A stretch of DNA of 38,094 bases from Bacteroidales bacterium. GTDB taxonomy: Bacteria; Bacteroidota; Bacteroidia; Bacteroidales; WCHB1-69. Below, piece after piece: positions 9,883-15,410 of this stretch (positions are counted from its first letter, which is position 1; each line of letters starts with the position of its first letter). A program made the position numbers and the translations under genes. The notes below the pieces were generated by a model. The model did not search any database, was not told where the DNA came from, and saw only the letters and a list, made by a program, of their open reading frames with translations. Location: the NCBI GenBank assembly GCA_017962275.1, contig JAGCVQ010000018.1, positions 1-38,094 on the forward strand. The letters are read 5' to 3'.

Positions 9883-10185
9883 CTAAAGAATCGTAATGAT
9901 GTTAGAGAATCCGGTGATGTCGAAAACCTCCTTCACTTGCGGATTCATATTGCGCATCACCATCTTGCCGCCACGAGCCATCACACTCTTTTGCAGCATC
10001 AGGAAAATACGGAGACCTTGTGACGAAGTGTATGACATATCCGTGCAGTCAATCTCTATATCAGGATTCTCGCCCTCCATCAAGGGGGTCATATCTTGTT
10101 GAAATTGATCTGCGTTTGAAGTGTCGATTCTTCCGTTCAACACCACGATTGTTTTATTCTCTTGCTGGGTTATCTTGATATCCAT
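9883..10185 (-). CDS. STAS-domain anti-sigma factor antagonist (SpoIIAA/RsbV-like)
   Basis: 100 aa, a single STAS domain. It opens MDIKITQQENKTIVVLNGRI and has the phospho-site loop DCTDMSYTSSQGLRIFL, with Ser54 or Ser55 as the expected target of the partner kinase. In partner switching the unphosphorylated form sequesters the kinase/anti-sigma protein. It lies between the kinase gene (23-bp gap) and the alarmone synthetase gene (8-bp gap), so all components of the switch sit together. No sigma factor gene is present in the window, so the output may be a sigma factor elsewhere or a non-sigma partner. Confidence 0.92.
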   Translation of the reverse strand: MDIKITQQENKTIVVLNGRIDTSNADQFQQDMTPLMEGENPDIEIDCTDMSYTSSQGLRIFLMLQKSVMARGGKMVMRNMNPQVKEVFDITGFSNIITIL

Positions 10186-10208: not shown

Positions 10209-10619
10209 TTAACCTTGAACTTTTTTCGTCATGGTGAGCACATTGTTGCCGTCTTCATAACGGTATTCGATGCTGTCCATCATCTTTTTGCACAGAAATA
10301 TGCCGAGACCGCCGATTTTGCGTTCACCCACGGAGAGGGTCACATCAGGATCCTCTTTCTCAAGTGGGTTAAAAGGTATGCCGGCATCCCGTAACTCGAT
10401 GGTGAGCACCAAAGAGTCCTCGTCGAGACTGGTGCCCGCTTCCAACCAGCCGATGCCTCCGTCGTAGGCATAACGCACCACATTCTCCACGGCCTCTTCG
10501 ATGGATAGCCGCAGTTTGAATTGCAGGACCTCATCATCGGGAATATCAGGAGAAGACATCAGAAATTCGATGATTTCGCTGCTTTTGTCCTTAATGGGGT
10601 TGAAACGTTTTTTTGTCAT
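10209..10619 (-). CDS. RsbW/SpoIIAB-like serine kinase (HATPase_c)
   Basis: 136 aa, GHKL ATPase fold. The N box is EEAVENVVRYAY (Asn46), G1 is RDAGIPFNP (Asp78, Gly80) and G2 is IGGLGIFLCKKMMD. This is the small stand-alone kinase type that phosphorylates a STAS partner and may bind a sigma factor. It is the second gene of the operon, 21 bp after the phosphatase gene. Confidence 0.92.
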   Translation of the reverse strand: MTKKRFNPIKDKSSEIIEFLMSSPDIPDDEVLQFKLRLSIEEAVENVVRYAYDGGIGWLEAGTSLDEDSLVLTIELRDAGIPFNPLEKEDPDVTLSVGERKIGGLGIFLCKKMMDSIEYRYEDGNNVLTMTKKVQG

Positions 10620-10640: not shown

Positions 10641-12518
10641 TTAAAGTTGAATACTCATAAGTGTGACATCGTCATTTTGCGGGTTGCCATATGCAAACGT
10701 CTTCACTGAATCAATGAGAAGGTTTACAGCGGTTTCCGAGGTCATGTCGCGGTTCATTTGGCGGATAGTCTCCAACAGCCGATCGTTGCCGTAGAACTCC
10801 TCGGAGGCGTTTTCGGCTTCGTTGACACCGTCGGTGTAGGCGATGATACGGGTGCCCGGCTTCAGGTCGAGACTTTCAGCTTCGTATGCGAAATTCTCAA
10901 TCAGACCGATGGCGAGGTTGGCTTTGGCCTTGAGGAAGTAGGGGTCGCCGTCGGGCGGCAGGATAACCAACGGGTTGTGGCCGGCGTTGCAGAAATCCAT
11001 GTGGAGGGTCTTCAAGTTGATACGGCCGACAAACAGGGTGACGAACATGTTGGTGCTGTTGGTGTCGATGAAGCTGTTGTTGACACGGCTCAATGTCTCG
11101 TTCAGCGGAAGTCCGAGACTTGCCACAAAACGGATTGTGGCACGGGTGATGGCCATCATCAGCGCGGCCGGAACCCCCTTGCCAGACACATCACCGATGG
11201 CGAAATAGAGTTGGTCTCCTTTGAGGGTGAAGTCGTAAAGGTCGCCGCCCACCTCCTTGGCGGGATTCAGCAGCGCATAAAGCTGCGGCGGGAAGTCGGT
11301 GCGCAGCATCCCCATCTGGATGTTGCGCGCCACGTTGAGCTCAGACTCCATACGCTCGTTGGCGTTAGTGGTGGTCTTGAGCTGCTCAATGTAGTCAGCG
11401 ATGGAGTTCTGCATGTAGATGAAGCTGTCGTGCAGACGGAGCATCTCGTCTTGGGTGGTGATCTCTGGCAATTCAGCCTTGAAGTTGCCCTTGGCCATGT
11501 TCAGCGCGGAGACCGAAAGTTCGGTGATGGGACGCGTCATGCGGCGTATCACACGACGGCAGACGAAGAAGATGATGATCAGACCGATGAGGCCGATAAT
11601 CAGCAGGGCGATATGCATCTGTGAGGAACGGCGAAGCACCTCTCTGTAGGGACATGTGATGCTGAGCTTCCAGCCGTTGTGCAAAGGTCCGTACACTACG
11701 AAAGCCAAGTCGCGCCCTTTGCCCACACGCCGCCGGATGCTGTCCTTGTTTGATCTGATGTCCTCCACCATCTCCTCGTAGGAACTGTTTCCTGAAAAAC
11801 TGCGTTTAAAGCGGTTAATCAAGTCGGAGTCGGAACTCTTGACACCGATGATGTTGTCCTTGTTGAATATAAGGGCAGCGATGGAGTTGTCGTAGGGGCG
11901 AATACCCTCCACCGTGCTTTCGATCTGGTCAATCACCATGTCGGATATCACGATGGCGTAGATGTTGAGCATAGAGTCCACCAAAGGATAGCAGTAGGAG
12001 ACGACGCGTGAGGCGCGTGTGTCGAACGGTATGTAAGGGGCTGTCCAAGAGGCCATCTTAGTCTCTTGAAGCTGCTGCAGATTCCATAATGTACATAATT
12101 GCGTGATTTGTTGGCAGTCGGGACGGAAGTCGTGGATGCCATCTTTGTCGCTGTAGCTGAAAATAGCGGGGCGAAGCGTGTCGATGCTTCCGTCGGGGAG
12201 GACAAAGATGATGGCGAATCCGTTTATCAGATCGCTGACCTCCACGGTGCGTTCGGCAATGGCTTGGAGTACTTGGGGCTGGGTTTTAAGTGTGGATATG
12301 TACGCCGCGACCGCATGCGTGGATACTTCGACCCGGTTCAAAGGCTTCTCCAATTCGCTGATGGTCCCGTGCAGGATGTGTTGGGTGGAACGGGTCGCTT
12401 CGTCGGCGATGATTTGGTGCGACACAATGGCAATCACCACCATGACCACGAAAAAAATCGCCGACACGATACCGATAATCCGCCAACTCAGGCTATTGGA
12501 AAAAGAATGTCTGCTCAT
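10641..12518 (-). CDS. Membrane SpoIIE-family PP2C phosphatase with extracytoplasmic sensor and HAMP
   Basis: 625 aa from the ATG at 12518 (MSRHSFSNSLSW). The longer frame to 12605 would add 29 residues encoded across the promoter and is rejected. One TM helix near 12-35 is followed by a sensor region of about 270 residues of the Cache type. A second TM (HIALLIIGLIGLIIIFFVC), a HAMP segment (RRMTRPITELS), a short coiled coil and a C-terminal PP2C-like SpoIIE domain complete it. The domain shows AKEVGGDLYDF, GDVSGKGVPAALMM, CNAGHNP, YTDGVNEA and DDVTLM. It should dephosphorylate the STAS protein when an external signal is sensed. It leads the operon, behind a -7 box at 12543-12550. Confidence 0.93.
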   Translation of the reverse strand: MSRHSFSNSLSWRIIGIVSAIFFVVMVVIAIVSHQIIADEATRSTQHILHGTISELEKPLNRVEVSTHAVAAYISTLKTQPQVLQAIAERTVEVSDLINGFAIIFVLPDGSIDTLRPAIFSYSDKDGIHDFRPDCQQITQLCTLWNLQQLQETKMASWTAPYIPFDTRASRVVSYCYPLVDSMLNIYAIVISDMVIDQIESTVEGIRPYDNSIAALIFNKDNIIGVKSSDSDLINRFKRSFSGNSSYEEMVEDIRSNKDSIRRRVGKGRDLAFVVYGPLHNGWKLSITCPYREVLRRSSQMHIALLIIGLIGLIIIFFVCRRVIRRMTRPITELSVSALNMAKGNFKAELPEITTQDEMLRLHDSFIYMQNSIADYIEQLKTTTNANERMESELNVARNIQMGMLRTDFPPQLYALLNPAKEVGGDLYDFTLKGDQLYFAIGDVSGKGVPAALMMAITRATIRFVASLGLPLNETLSRVNNSFIDTNSTNMFVTLFVGRINLKTLHMDFCNAGHNPLVILPPDGDPYFLKAKANLAIGLIENFAYEAESLDLKPGTRIIAYTDGVNEAENASEEFYGNDRLLETIRQMNRDMTSETAVNLLIDSVKTFAYGNPQNDDVTLMSIQL

Positions 12519-12542
12519 ATTATATTTATCTGTTTCAGAATG

Positions 12543-12550
12543 CAAATGTA
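12543..12550 (-). promoter_or_regulatory. -7 box (TACATTTG) of the signalling operon
   Basis: On the minus strand the box reads TACATTTG and matches TAnnTTTG, 25 bp before the phosphatase ATG. A TTTG lies further up at 12574-12577, but its spacing of 23 bp is longer than usual. Confidence 0.6.
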
Positions 12551-12590
12551 CATAAAATATGAATACACACAGACAAATGAAATTGCCGCG

Positions 12591-12618
12591 GTAGAGACGT
12601 TGCACGTAACGTCTCTAC
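12591..12618. terminator. GTAGAGACG-family palindrome at the end of the ABC gene
   Basis: GTAGAGACGTT (12591-12601) and AACGTCTCTAC (12608-12618) form an 11-bp perfect stem with a 6-nt loop. The inner arm covers the TAG stop of the ABC fusion gene (12615-12617), so the last codons are part of the repeat. It can form a strong hairpin at the transcript end but lacks a T-run. It shares the GTAGAGACG outer arms with the palindrome at 2972-2999. Confidence 0.6.
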
Positions 12619-15410
12619 AATATCAGTTTCACACGGAAACCTAACTTGGTGGGCTCTTCCACTACCCGCTGGCACAATGTAGCCAGTTCGCTGCGTTGCG
12701 CGTCGCTCAACGGTGTTGATTCCATCTTTTCCACCATGAAGTCCAAGGCGGTGACTTCCGACTGTTCGCTGTGGGTGATGCGGACGGTGATGGGACGGTA
12801 AGCCGCCATCACGTCGTCGAGCATCTTGTTACACAGCTGCTGTGCCAGTTCCTGCTTCTCGTTGATGCCGTATTTGTAGCAGAACGCATTGATGGCCGAG
12901 TGCATGCCCAAGAAGTCGAAGTCGGGACCGTCAATCTGGAACACCTCCTTGCGGATGCGCTGTATGAAGGCCTTGGTGGCGCTGTGAACCGGATTCTCGA
13001 AAATTTGTTCAGGTGTACCGTCCTCGTGGATATATCCGTCGTACATGAAGAAGATGCGCGTGCTCACGTCGTGGGCGAACTTCATCTCGTGGGTGACGAT
13101 GAGCATGGTCATGCCTTCTTTGGCTAACTGGCGGATGACGCTGAGCACTTCGCCCACCATTGTGGGATCGAGGGCGGAAGTAGGCTCGTCGAAGAGGAGG
13201 ATTTCGGGCTTCATGGCGAGGGCGCGGGCGATGGCCACACGCTGTTTCTGACCGCCGGAAAGGCTTGTGGGATAGACATCCGCCTTTTCGGCCAGACCTA
13301 CCTTACGCAGGAGTGCCAAACCTTCCTCGCGTGCCTTTTCCGGATCTTCATTGTGCAACTGGCAGGGGGCAAGCATGACGTTTTCGAGAACGGTTTTGTG
13401 AGGGAAGAGATTGAAGCTCTGGAACACCATGCCCATTTTCTGGCGCATCAAATGGACGGGGTAGCCCTTGACGAGGATGTCCTCGCCATCGACGAAGATG
13501 CTGCCTCCGGTGGGCTGCTCCAACAGGTTCATGCAGCGCAAAAAGGTACTCTTGCCTGTGCCCGAAGGACCAATGATGGAGATGACCTCGCCGCAATGTA
13601 CATCGGCGTTAATGTCACGCAAAACGTCCAGGTCTTCAAAACTTTTCTTCAGATGGGAGATGCGGATGATGGGAGCGTCTGAAGGTTGGGAGTTGGGAGT
13701 TTGGCGTTGAGAGTTAGGAGTTGAGAGTTGGGCTGTGCTGCGTTTACGGCGAATAAGGAACCATGTGCCGCAACCAACTATTACACATATAGCCAAAATC
13801 CACGGCCATTTTTTATTATCTTTTTCGGTATCAGTCGGTTGCGAAGGGTTGGTAAGTATCCCTGCTTCCCCTTTACGGGTGATCAACACGATATGTTCTG
13901 CAAGGTAGCCTTCGGAGAAGAGCACCTGTTTCTGTCGCTCCTCGGTGATGCTGATGGCTCCCATGGCCATATCGACCTTGCCCGTCTGCACGGCTGGAAT
14001 CTGCGAGGCGAACTCCATGGCGAGAAATTCCAGCTGCCAGTTGCGACGGTTGGCCCACTCGCTGAGCAGGTCTATCTCCAAGCCAGTGGGTTCGCCGGAA
14101 CTGATGAAACTGAAAGGAGGAAAAGCCGGGTAGATGGCTACGTGGAGTGTGCGACCCGTGCCGCGCCTTTGAGGCCGAGCCACCGCCGCGAGGTCGTCGG
14201 CGTTACTCCATCGGTCAATAATCTTCTGGTAGGTGCCGTCGCTGCGGATATCTGCCAGGAAGCTGTCGAAGTCCTGCTTCAGTTCTGTGTTGTCCAGCTG
14301 GAAGCAAGCTCCGATGGGTGTCCCCGGCAGGCAGGCATTCACGGTATCCACCTTCGCGGCTATCTCCTTGTTGAACGCCACCGAGAGATTATCCCAACCG
14401 GCAACGTCCACCTTGCCGTTCTCCAGCGCAGCCAACAAATCGGCGCTACTTGTAATTCGCATAATGTCGGCATCGGGTGCATAGTTGCTTACGGCCATGT
14501 CCTGTACACTACCGATGACAACGCCGACACGCTTGCCGGAGAGCGCCTTGAATACCTCAGGAGTTTCCGCCACCACTTCGGTCTTAGTGTTGTCGGAACT
14601 GAACATTGCCGGCACGTAGCACACGGTTGCGCCTATTGCCAGCAGCAGAGCGGCCACGATAGCTCTCATGCGTTTGCGCTGTACCAGCGAGGTCAGCAGC
14701 AGCCCGATGAGCCACGCCATGATGAAATAGATGATGGCTGAGAAGATAAGGGGGAAGAAGGCATCGAAGGTGCGCGAGCGGATAAGGTCGGAAGCCCTGG
14801 TCATGTCGGCCACAGCGATATAACCCACGACGCTGGTGCCTTTCAGCAGACTGATCACTTCTCCCTGATAGACCGGCATCACAGACTTGATTACCTGAGG
14901 CAGCACAATTCTGAAAAACGTCTGCCGACGCGTGTATCCTAGAGCCAGACCTGCCTCTGTCTGTCCGCGGTCAATGCCCTGAATGCCGGTACGGAGCATC
15001 TCGCTGACGTAGGCCGACAGGTTCATGGCGAAGGTGATGACGGCCACCACGATGCCCGTGGCTTTCATCGGTGCCAACACCACATAGTACATCAACATGA
15101 GCAGCACCAACACGGGTGTGCCGCGCATGATGTCGATATAGACTTTGGCCACCTTCTGTAGCCAAGGTCTGCGGCTCATACGCATCCAGCAGACCAAACC
15201 GCCCAGCAAGGTGCCCAGTATGGCTGCGCAAAAGGTGATGATGAGGGTCACCTGCAAGCCGTCGAGAATCATCCTGTAGCGGTCCTCGGCTATCAGGTTG
15301 TTGTAAAAACTTTCAGAGACGCTCCATTTCGAACCGGAGCAGCCCGTCAACATAAAACAGCCGCAAATAGTCAGGATGGCGGCGAGCATCCATGGTATAT
15401 TTTTTCTCAT
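12615..15410 (-). CDS. Single-chain polar amino-acid ABC importer: permease + permuted binding domain + ATPase
   Basis: 931 aa. Order: lipobox-like LTGC at 21-24. HisM/GlnP-type permease at about 45-245, with the EAA loop EAGLALGYTRRQTFFRIVLPQ truncated here to its core EAGLALGYTRR. Extra TM at 248-270. Binding-protein lobe 2 plus its closing helices (290-401, SGKRVGVVIGS to GTYQKIIDRW). Binding-protein lobe 1 (421-517, TLHVAIYPAFPPFSF to VLITRKGEAG). TM at 535-553. Linker 558-578. GlnQ-type ATPase 580-825: Walker A GPSGTGKST 614-622, signature LSGGQ 717-721, Walker B LLFDEP 738-743, His774. A C-terminal domain of about 100 residues is unrecognised. Topology is consistent: binding parts outside, ATPase inside. 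Lobe order is the reverse of normal. The family is clear; the exact substrate is not. Confidence 0.88.
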   Translation of the reverse strand: MRKNIPWMLAAILTICGCFMLTGCSGSKWSVSESFYNNLIAEDRYRMILDGLQVTLIITFCAAILGTLLGGLVCWMRMSRRPWLQKVAKVYIDIMRGTPVLVLLMLMYYVVLAPMKATGIVVAVITFAMNLSAYVSEMLRTGIQGIDRGQTEAGLALGYTRRQTFFRIVLPQVIKSVMPVYQGEVISLLKGTSVVGYIAVADMTRASDLIRSRTFDAFFPLIFSAIIYFIMAWLIGLLLTSLVQRKRMRAIVAALLLAIGATVCYVPAMFSSDNTKTEVVAETPEVFKALSGKRVGVVIGSVQDMAVSNYAPDADIMRITSSADLLAALENGKVDVAGWDNLSVAFNKEIAAKVDTVNACLPGTPIGACFQLDNTELKQDFDSFLADIRSDGTYQKIIDRWSNADDLAAVARPQRRGTGRTLHVAIYPAFPPFSFISSGEPTGLEIDLLSEWANRRNWQLEFLAMEFASQIPAVQTGKVDMAMGAISITEERQKQVLFSEGYLAEHIVLITRKGEAGILTNPSQPTDTEKDNKKWPWILAICVIVGCGTWFLIRRKRSTAQLSTPNSQRQTPNSQPSDAPIIRISHLKKSFEDLDVLRDINADVHCGEVISIIGPSGTGKSTFLRCMNLLEQPTGGSIFVDGEDILVKGYPVHLMRQKMGMVFQSFNLFPHKTVLENVMLAPCQLHNEDPEKAREEGLALLRKVGLAEKADVYPTSLSGGQKQRVAIARALAMKPEILLFDEPTSALDPTMVGEVLSVIRQLAKEGMTMLIVTHEMKFAHDVSTRIFFMYDGYIHEDGTPEQIFENPVHSATKAFIQRIRKEVFQIDGPDFDFLGMHSAINAFCYKYGINEKQELAQQLCNKMLDDVMAAYRPITVRITHSEQSEVTALDFMVEKMESTPLSDAQRSELATLCQRVVEEPTKLGFRVKLIL
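13685..13733. repeat. Seven-copy heptamer array inside the ABC fusion gene
   Basis: Seven contiguous 7-bp units of type GTTGRGA (starts 13685, 13692, 13699, 13706, 13713, 13720, 13727). Read on the coding minus strand they give a Ser/Thr/Gln/Pro/Asn-rich linker with period 7 residues (STPNSQR, QTPNSQP). The unit is not a multiple of three, so gain or loss of one unit would shift the frame between the transport half and the ATPase. Confidence 0.85.

Follow-up and report, generated by a model that had tools for sequence, protein, structure and literature searches.

A Probable One-Chain Amino-Acid Importer with a Permuted Binding Domain

A single open reading frame (ORF) in a 38,094-nucleotide contig of a rumen Bacteroidales bacterium (JAGCVQ010000018.1, assembly GCA_017962275.1; the whole contig is called the window below) appears to encode a complete type I ATP-binding cassette (ABC) importer for a polar amino acid. 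The ORF has 931 amino acids (aa) and an ATG start and occupies positions 12615-15410 of the minus strand, on which all importer features given below also lie. The importer would probably be a homodimer, each chain carrying one naturally circularly permuted binding domain of family 3 (type II), a reading to which we assign a probability of about 0.86. The order within the binding domain is confirmed by comparison with solved chains: lobe 2 (D2), the closing helices (D1b), a linker and the first part of lobe 1 (D1a), unlike the D1a-D2-D1b order usual in SBP_bac_3.

Lobe Order of the Binding Domain

The first-pass annotation of this DNA had proposed that lobe 2 and its closing helices precede lobe 1, and this was borne out by complementary matches to AncQR (4zv1, 233 residues) in reverse order. 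When residues 280-520 of the window protein were compared with it, residues 421-517 fell on chain positions 11-108 and residues 288-402 on positions 113-231. The chain of 6svf (229 residues) was likewise matched over positions 12-105 and 110-227. A binding-domain profile (A2) built from 75 rows gave the same picture, with profile positions 136-236 on AncQR positions 7-108 and profile positions 2-122 on AncQR positions 108-232.

The A2 profile matched 488 solved sequences, and 58 of the 60 shown were matched in two stretches. The other two, 6h30 and 4q0c, gave three stretches, one of which crossed the junction of two normal domains and spanned nearly the whole profile. 6h30 is the GlnP tandem and the best solved match of the profile; 4q0c is BvgS, a protein with tandem binding domains. 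The junction of a normal tandem can therefore imitate the permuted order. Linker lengths also fail to separate a permuted unit from such a junction: the D1b-to-D1a linker measured 17-23 residues in every layout and the D1a-to-D2 linker between units 9-32 residues, while five normal-order proteins gave 9, 9, 11, 14 and an outlying 118. The permuted order is therefore demonstrated only by proteins with a single unit, namely the one-chain clade, single-unit fusions and free-standing forms.

SBP_bac_3 (PF00497) matched the ORF with 120 bits against a cut-off of 26.4, as two stretches, and both lobes are present. In the genome search positions 14205-14471 corresponded to profile positions 40-130 and positions 13815-14147 to profile positions 1-102, so that on the minus strand the late part of the profile precedes the early part in the chain. 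Because the two stretches overlap at positions 40-102 of the 132-position profile, Pfam alone gives no clean proof of a permutation, which is shown by the matches to solved chains. On this combined evidence D2 and D1b were placed at residues 289-402 (14205-14546). An 18-residue linker (residues 403-420, 14151-14204) leads to D1a (residues 421-517, 13860-14150), the initial portion of lobe 1 as far as the hinge strand, and the linker has the same length in all 36 one-chain ORFs described below.

Layout of the Chain and Ligand Residues

Pfam-A placed BPD_transp_1 at residues 67-243, ABC_tran at 597-745 and SBP_bac_3 twice, and this domain order agrees with the earlier proposal of a chain that starts with the permease and ends with the ATPase. 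A lipoprotein-type signal (residues 1-24, 15339-15410), recognised by hydropathy (hydrophobic residues 5-23) and the motif LTGC at 21-24, directly precedes the polar amino-acid permease (residues 28-247, 14670-15329). The latter matched the HEQRo-type model TIGR01726 with 79.4 bits (cut-off 42.2) and contains an EAA loop. The ATPase (residues 580-819, 12954-13673) carries Walker A, LSGGQ, Walker B and H-loop motifs and resembles GlnQ or ArtP. GlnQ was its best NCBIfam model, and at 296 bits against an equivalog cut-off of 379 the domain is GlnQ-like, its identity as GlnQ not being established. Residues 820-931 (12618-12953) form a C-terminal domain, which is discussed below.

A simple hydropathy scan found segments at residues 5-23, 56-74, 94-112, 117-135, 221-239, 251-269 and 535-553. 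Two of these flank the binding domain: a transmembrane (TM) segment at residues 248-270 (14601-14669; hydropathy peak 251-269) and another at residues 535-553 (13752-13808), as had been predicted for tethers on both sides. Permeases of this type usually have five helices; the scan found four in the permease. Assuming five, the chain would leave the cytoplasm through segment 251-269, present the binding domain outside and return through segment 535-553, so that the ATPase would stay cytoplasmic. The charges around the first segment agree with this topology (four Lys/Arg before, one after).

T489 and R492, both in D1a, are conserved in all 37 one-chain rows and in 37 of 38 other rows, and residue 340, the place of the lobe-2 acid, is Asp or Glu in 36/37 and 33/38 rows, respectively (Asp in the window protein). 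We presume that T489 and R492 contact the alpha-carboxylate and D340 the alpha-amino group of the ligand, by analogy with GlnBP and HisJ. From these features we infer that the two pieces would fold into one Venus flytrap, bind an alpha-amino acid and deliver it to the permease of their own protein. In the same genome, which is 94% complete, no other HEQRo permease scored above the cut-off (one further match lay below it), and the only other family-3 match was a 463-residue protein with an SLT domain; the one-chain gene may therefore be the only importer of its kind there.

One-Chain Relatives

Relatives were collected by one scan of genome contigs, and layouts were called by a scan of the best 80 of 546 loci, which were fetched. 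The order permease-D2-D1a-ATPase was found in 36 ORFs among these 80 loci, answering the proposal that homologues of identical order should be sought. A few of the 36 are truncated at contig ends or interrupted by a frame break; 28 have a match to the C-terminal domain of the window protein and 8 do not. One of them (L059) comes from Xylanibacter ruminicola Ga6B6, whose record is not titled as a metagenome-assembled genome. Copies of the binding domain, 69-99% identical, were present in 7 of 35 other genomes of the same genus, and in 34 of the 36 one-chain ORFs a simple hydropathy scan called a TM segment both before and after the binding domain.

In a midpoint-rooted permease tree of 57 thinned rows, the 14 one-chain rows lay on one side of a branch with an SH-aLRT (Shimodaira-Hasegawa-like approximate likelihood ratio test) support of 100, next to single-unit fusions of Bacteroidales. 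The one-chain form thus probably arose once. Since these single-unit fusions start with a signal, followed by the binding domain and the permease, the lipoprotein-type signal before the one-chain permease may be a leftover from the departure of the binding domain from that place. Two further chains have other layouts: L114 encodes three units, a permease, a TM segment and then a fourth unit on a single chain, and L063 has two units before the ATPase, with the contig ending upstream.

Ratios of nonsynonymous to synonymous substitution rates (dN/dS) were calculated pairwise against the window gene, for pairs with dS of 0.1-2.5 only. The medians were 0.11 for the permease (35 pairs), 0.18 for D2-D1b (32 pairs), 0.12 for D1a (31 pairs), 0.09 for the ATPase (30 pairs) and 0.19 for the C-terminal domain (32 pairs), values that indicate purifying selection on all five domains. 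Compared with L049, the window gene is 100% identical in DNA over residues 31-120, 74-91% over 121-300, 96-100% over 301-690 and 80-90% beyond, an unevenness that looks like recombination.

The Permutation Extends beyond the One-Chain Protein

The first-pass annotation had treated the swapped lobes as part of the one-chain arrangement. That arrangement stands, whereas the permutation itself is not special to the one-chain protein, as free forms and fusions in several phyla share it. Besides the one-chain ORFs, the 80 loci contained 12 free D2-D1a proteins, 10 D2-D1a-permease fusions, and arrays before a permease with two (10), three (5) or four units (1); the remaining ORFs were truncated at contig ends, were split, or had isolated unusual layouts. 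By record name, the free forms belong to Treponema and other spirochaetes (7), Bacteroidales (2), Chlorobiaceae, Ruminococcus and Lachnospiraceae (1 each). Their frames, 260-313 aa long, have a signal-like start followed by D2 and end just past the hinge strand, the D1b-D1a linker being 18-19 residues; a lipobox was seen by eye in 8 of the 12. Separate permease and ATPase genes follow in eight of these loci (L105, L115, L119, L120, L122, L124, L126 and L127). The frame in L107 is split from a three-unit array and is not a three-gene free form. In the Treponema record L124 (3534-8131), a normal-order binding protein, a permease and an ATPase stand directly before the permuted set.

Larger genome samples gave a wider view of the distribution. 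Within the taxonomic order of the window, 38 of 393 genomes had a match at an E-value of 1e-12; in 22 of these a single match covered 200 or more of the 241 positions, and in 16 the matches were partial. Within its phylum, 43 of 395 genomes had a match at E 1e-40, 38 of these in one family (f136), which is probably Chlorobiaceae because its genome G972 shares its layout with the named record L102. Matches were also found in 17 of 198 genomes of the phylum of the Treponema genome (L120) and in 15 of 299 genomes of the phylum of the Ruminococcus genome (L105), where the layouts of 12 of the 15 were looked at (G1152, G1243 and G1313 were left out). Within the fetched DNA, all frames with domain matches from the Treponema-phylum and window-phylum samples start with D2. 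In contrast, the same layout scan calls normal-order proteins D1a-D2, for example L124:3534, L151-L156 and L173-L176.

Where a permease is preceded by three or four units (L087, L088, L091, L093, L094, L096 and L114), the chain has half domains at its ends. These outer halves might pair with one another to give a ring, or every unit might be permuted; the sequence of an array is also consistent with middle units of normal order between split ends.

Evidence for Several Origins and a Second Cut Point

Three free-standing proteins from the sample around the Ruminococcus genome (L236, L237 and L241) are cut inside D2 and not at the hinge. They start at profile position 25-27 of D2, continue with D1b and D1a, and finish with D2 positions 1-24 or 3-24. 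With the L241 protein as query, three of 299 genomes, one of them that of L241 itself, gave matches spanning at least positions 1-232. Among the 31 frames with domain matches in the loci found by this query, 27 have normal order, three are the proteins just named and one (L246, from the genome of L235) is hinge-cut.

In the trees, L236, L237, L241 and the hinge-cut L235 were placed among normal-order proteins. A single clade of all permuted rows was rejected by the approximately unbiased (AU) test (P = 8e-10; 35 permuted and 35 normal-order rows), as was a single clade of the hinge-cut rows (P = 2e-7; 28 and 36 rows, six long-branch rows being dropped). The trees speak for more than one origin of the hinge-cut permutation; they do not distinguish gains from losses of the permutation, and L235 represents a single genome. 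A first tree of binding proteins with only eight normal-order rows did not reject a single origin (AU P = 0.25). Sampling was uneven: most normal-order rows were found with the L241 query, and rows were thinned. Some placements are weak (L239/L242 83/53; L235 inside its own group 76/19), while the normal-order group holding L235 has 100/96. The window protein sits in the largest permuted group of the tree.

It appears likely, at a confidence below that for the importer itself, that family-3 proteins were permuted several times, with at least two cut points and by way of tandem arrays, and that in one rumen lineage of Bacteroidales/Prevotella this allowed a one-chain importer whose binding domain is pinned at the hinge. 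The permutation looks older than the one-chain fusion and may have originated in tandem arrays of binding proteins through loss of the outer halves; the domain would then, probably once, have moved behind the permease and been joined by the ATPase. In L238, a stretch resembling a second start of D2 was noticed by eye between D1a and the permease. It is possibly a fossil of a tandem array, as expected if an array lost its outer halves.

C-Terminal Domain and Downstream Genes

The genes directly downstream on the minus strand encode a SpoIIE phosphatase with HAMP (10641-12605), an HATPase_c_2 kinase (10209-10619) and a STAS protein (9883-10185), and form a partner-switching set. This set stands directly beside the one-chain gene only in some loci of the same genus (L036-L039, L042/L048 and the duplicates L049 and L067). 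It was not found directly beside the one-chain gene in L050-L062, L064-L066 and L068-L085, where a SpoIIE-like gene lies further off in L068, L070, L078 and L083. In L035/L099 a fused SpoIIE-HATPase follows a permuted two-gene importer.

The C-terminal domain of the window protein can be aligned to a wider family, which occurs on the ATPases of systems with fused binding domains, resembles HATPase_c_2 (GHKL) and lacks the usual GHKL motifs. The ATPases of eight three-gene permuted loci are without such a domain: only 0-1 residues follow their ATPase domain, against 109-126 in the other ATPase frames compared. The wider family aligned with the neighbouring HATPase_c_2 kinases at an hhalign probability of 97.5 (E = 7e-12, 108 columns), and 10 of its 27 members matched PF13581 at E up to 0.1 (best 3.8e-7). 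The C-terminal domains of the one-chain ORFs alone gave no GHKL signal, and a PDB search with the wider family gave two weak matches (E = 0.37 and 0.66). We regard the wider family as degenerate and GHKL-like.

Proposed Mechanism and Alternative Readings

In the general scheme of type I importers, the flytrap closes on its ligand, docks on the permease dimer and releases its load as the ATPase passes through its cycle. The homodimer proposed here would follow the same scheme on its own permease dimer, two permeases making the pore, two ATPases driving it and each chain bringing one binding domain with which to capture the amino acid. The chain is opened behind the hinge strand that connects lobe 1 to lobe 2. 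Both tethers are therefore expected to depart close to the hinge and lobe 2, in contrast to GlnP, where the tether lies at the end of lobe 1.

Several observations weigh against this proposal. The topology barely fits at the second TM segment (residues 535-553), with three Lys/Arg before and four after it, and two one-chain ORFs (L060 and L073) have no TM call on one side. Not every transport motif was found by simple pattern searches in every one-chain ORF, some of which are cut (Walker A 36, signature 35, Walker B 35, H-loop 33 and EAA loop 32 of 36), and an N-terminal lipobox-like motif precedes the permease in just 12 of the 36. For the free forms L095 and L098, neither a permease nor an ATPase was recognised in the DNA that was fetched. 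Finally, the lobe-2 acid is Glu in 31 of the 37 one-chain rows, so the ligand may differ from the classical ones.

Importers of this class have two permease subunits, and the binding domain might therefore be completed in the homodimer by domain swapping, D1a of one chain closing on D2-D1b of the other. An 18-residue linker is compatible with such pairing, and the middle units of arrays can be read in normal order; the free-standing permuted proteins, which have almost the same linker, would presumably function as monomers, and we regard swapping as improbable. Somewhat less probable again is a protein that acts mainly as a sensor and reports its ligand through the C-terminal domain of the ATPase to the partner-switching genes that directly follow. 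The likeness of the wider C-terminal family to HATPase_c_2 fits this idea, whereas the presence of the transport motifs and the restriction of directly adjacent partner genes to some loci of one genus argue against it. A decaying importer, in which deletions left two incomplete lobes that do not bind, would agree with the faster change of lobe 2 (median identity to the window protein 65%, against 83% for the permease and 85% for the ATPase); the dN/dS of 0.12-0.18 for the two pieces, the conserved ligand-type residues and the same order in 36 ORFs make this very unlikely. That an assembly or frame error hides a normal binding protein, a case raised in the first-pass annotation and conceivable for an assembly of 105 contigs, is hardly credible given that the swapped order recurs in those 36 ORFs and in many records, L059 included, and that the complete genome of Bacteroidales bacterium CF (L103) has a single-unit D2-D1a frame of 508 aa (L177).

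Known Systems and Significance

The permuted one-chain importer resembles several known systems in part. GlnPQ has two normal-order binding domains before its permease, the ATPase being a separate protein. Both it and the window importer join family-3 binding domains to a permease of one kind; unlike GlnPQ, the window importer has one permuted domain between permease and ATPase on one chain and is not a fusion of the GlnPQ type. In OpuA-type importers, which take up glycine betaine and have a separate ATPase, the binding domain is placed after the permease. The solved amino-acid binding proteins matched by the window domain are of type II. Like the window domain, HisJ, GlnH, ArtJ and AncQR have two lobes and ligand-type residues (Arg, Thr and an acid), and they differ in being separate proteins of normal lobe order.

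The fused family-3 binding domains of GlnPQ from Lactococcus lactis are treated in passages of PMC8025302, and fused or tandem binding domains are reviewed in parts of PMC8276074. Fusion of the binding domain to the permease is also a feature of OpuA-type importers, and the passages of PMC2861598 that concern these make no mention of permutation. A "domain dislocation" in OpuAC/ProX was considered as a possible precedent; these words were not found in the passages of the paper looked at. The nearest precedent is TpMglB-2 (Tp0684) of Treponema pallidum, proposed as "Type Ic", a natural circularly permuted binding protein that binds its ligand and would serve a probable ABC importer; its authors consider such binding proteins to be probably tethered (PMC4990184). 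As described there, TpMglB-2 is a separate, unfused protein with the Type I, cluster B fold of sugar-binding proteins, whereas the window domain belongs by sequence to SBP_bac_3, matches solved amino-acid binding proteins and falls outside Type Ic. No permuted family-3 binding protein and no one-chain importer of this order was found in the parts of the open-access literature covered, a scope that leaves aside most subscription papers, and the novelty of a permuted family-3 protein is not proven.

An annotation that gave nothing but the family name would be expected to conceal the rearrangement described here. Binding proteins are much-studied molecules of two lobes, and biosensors are made from them by the insertion of circularly permuted fluorescent proteins. 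A natural family opened at the hinge reveals the cuts that evolution tolerates and offers scaffolds. It also makes the effects of the place of the tether on docking and transport testable. The one-chain form sets capture, pore and motor at one-to-one, which would aid structural work on amino-acid importers.

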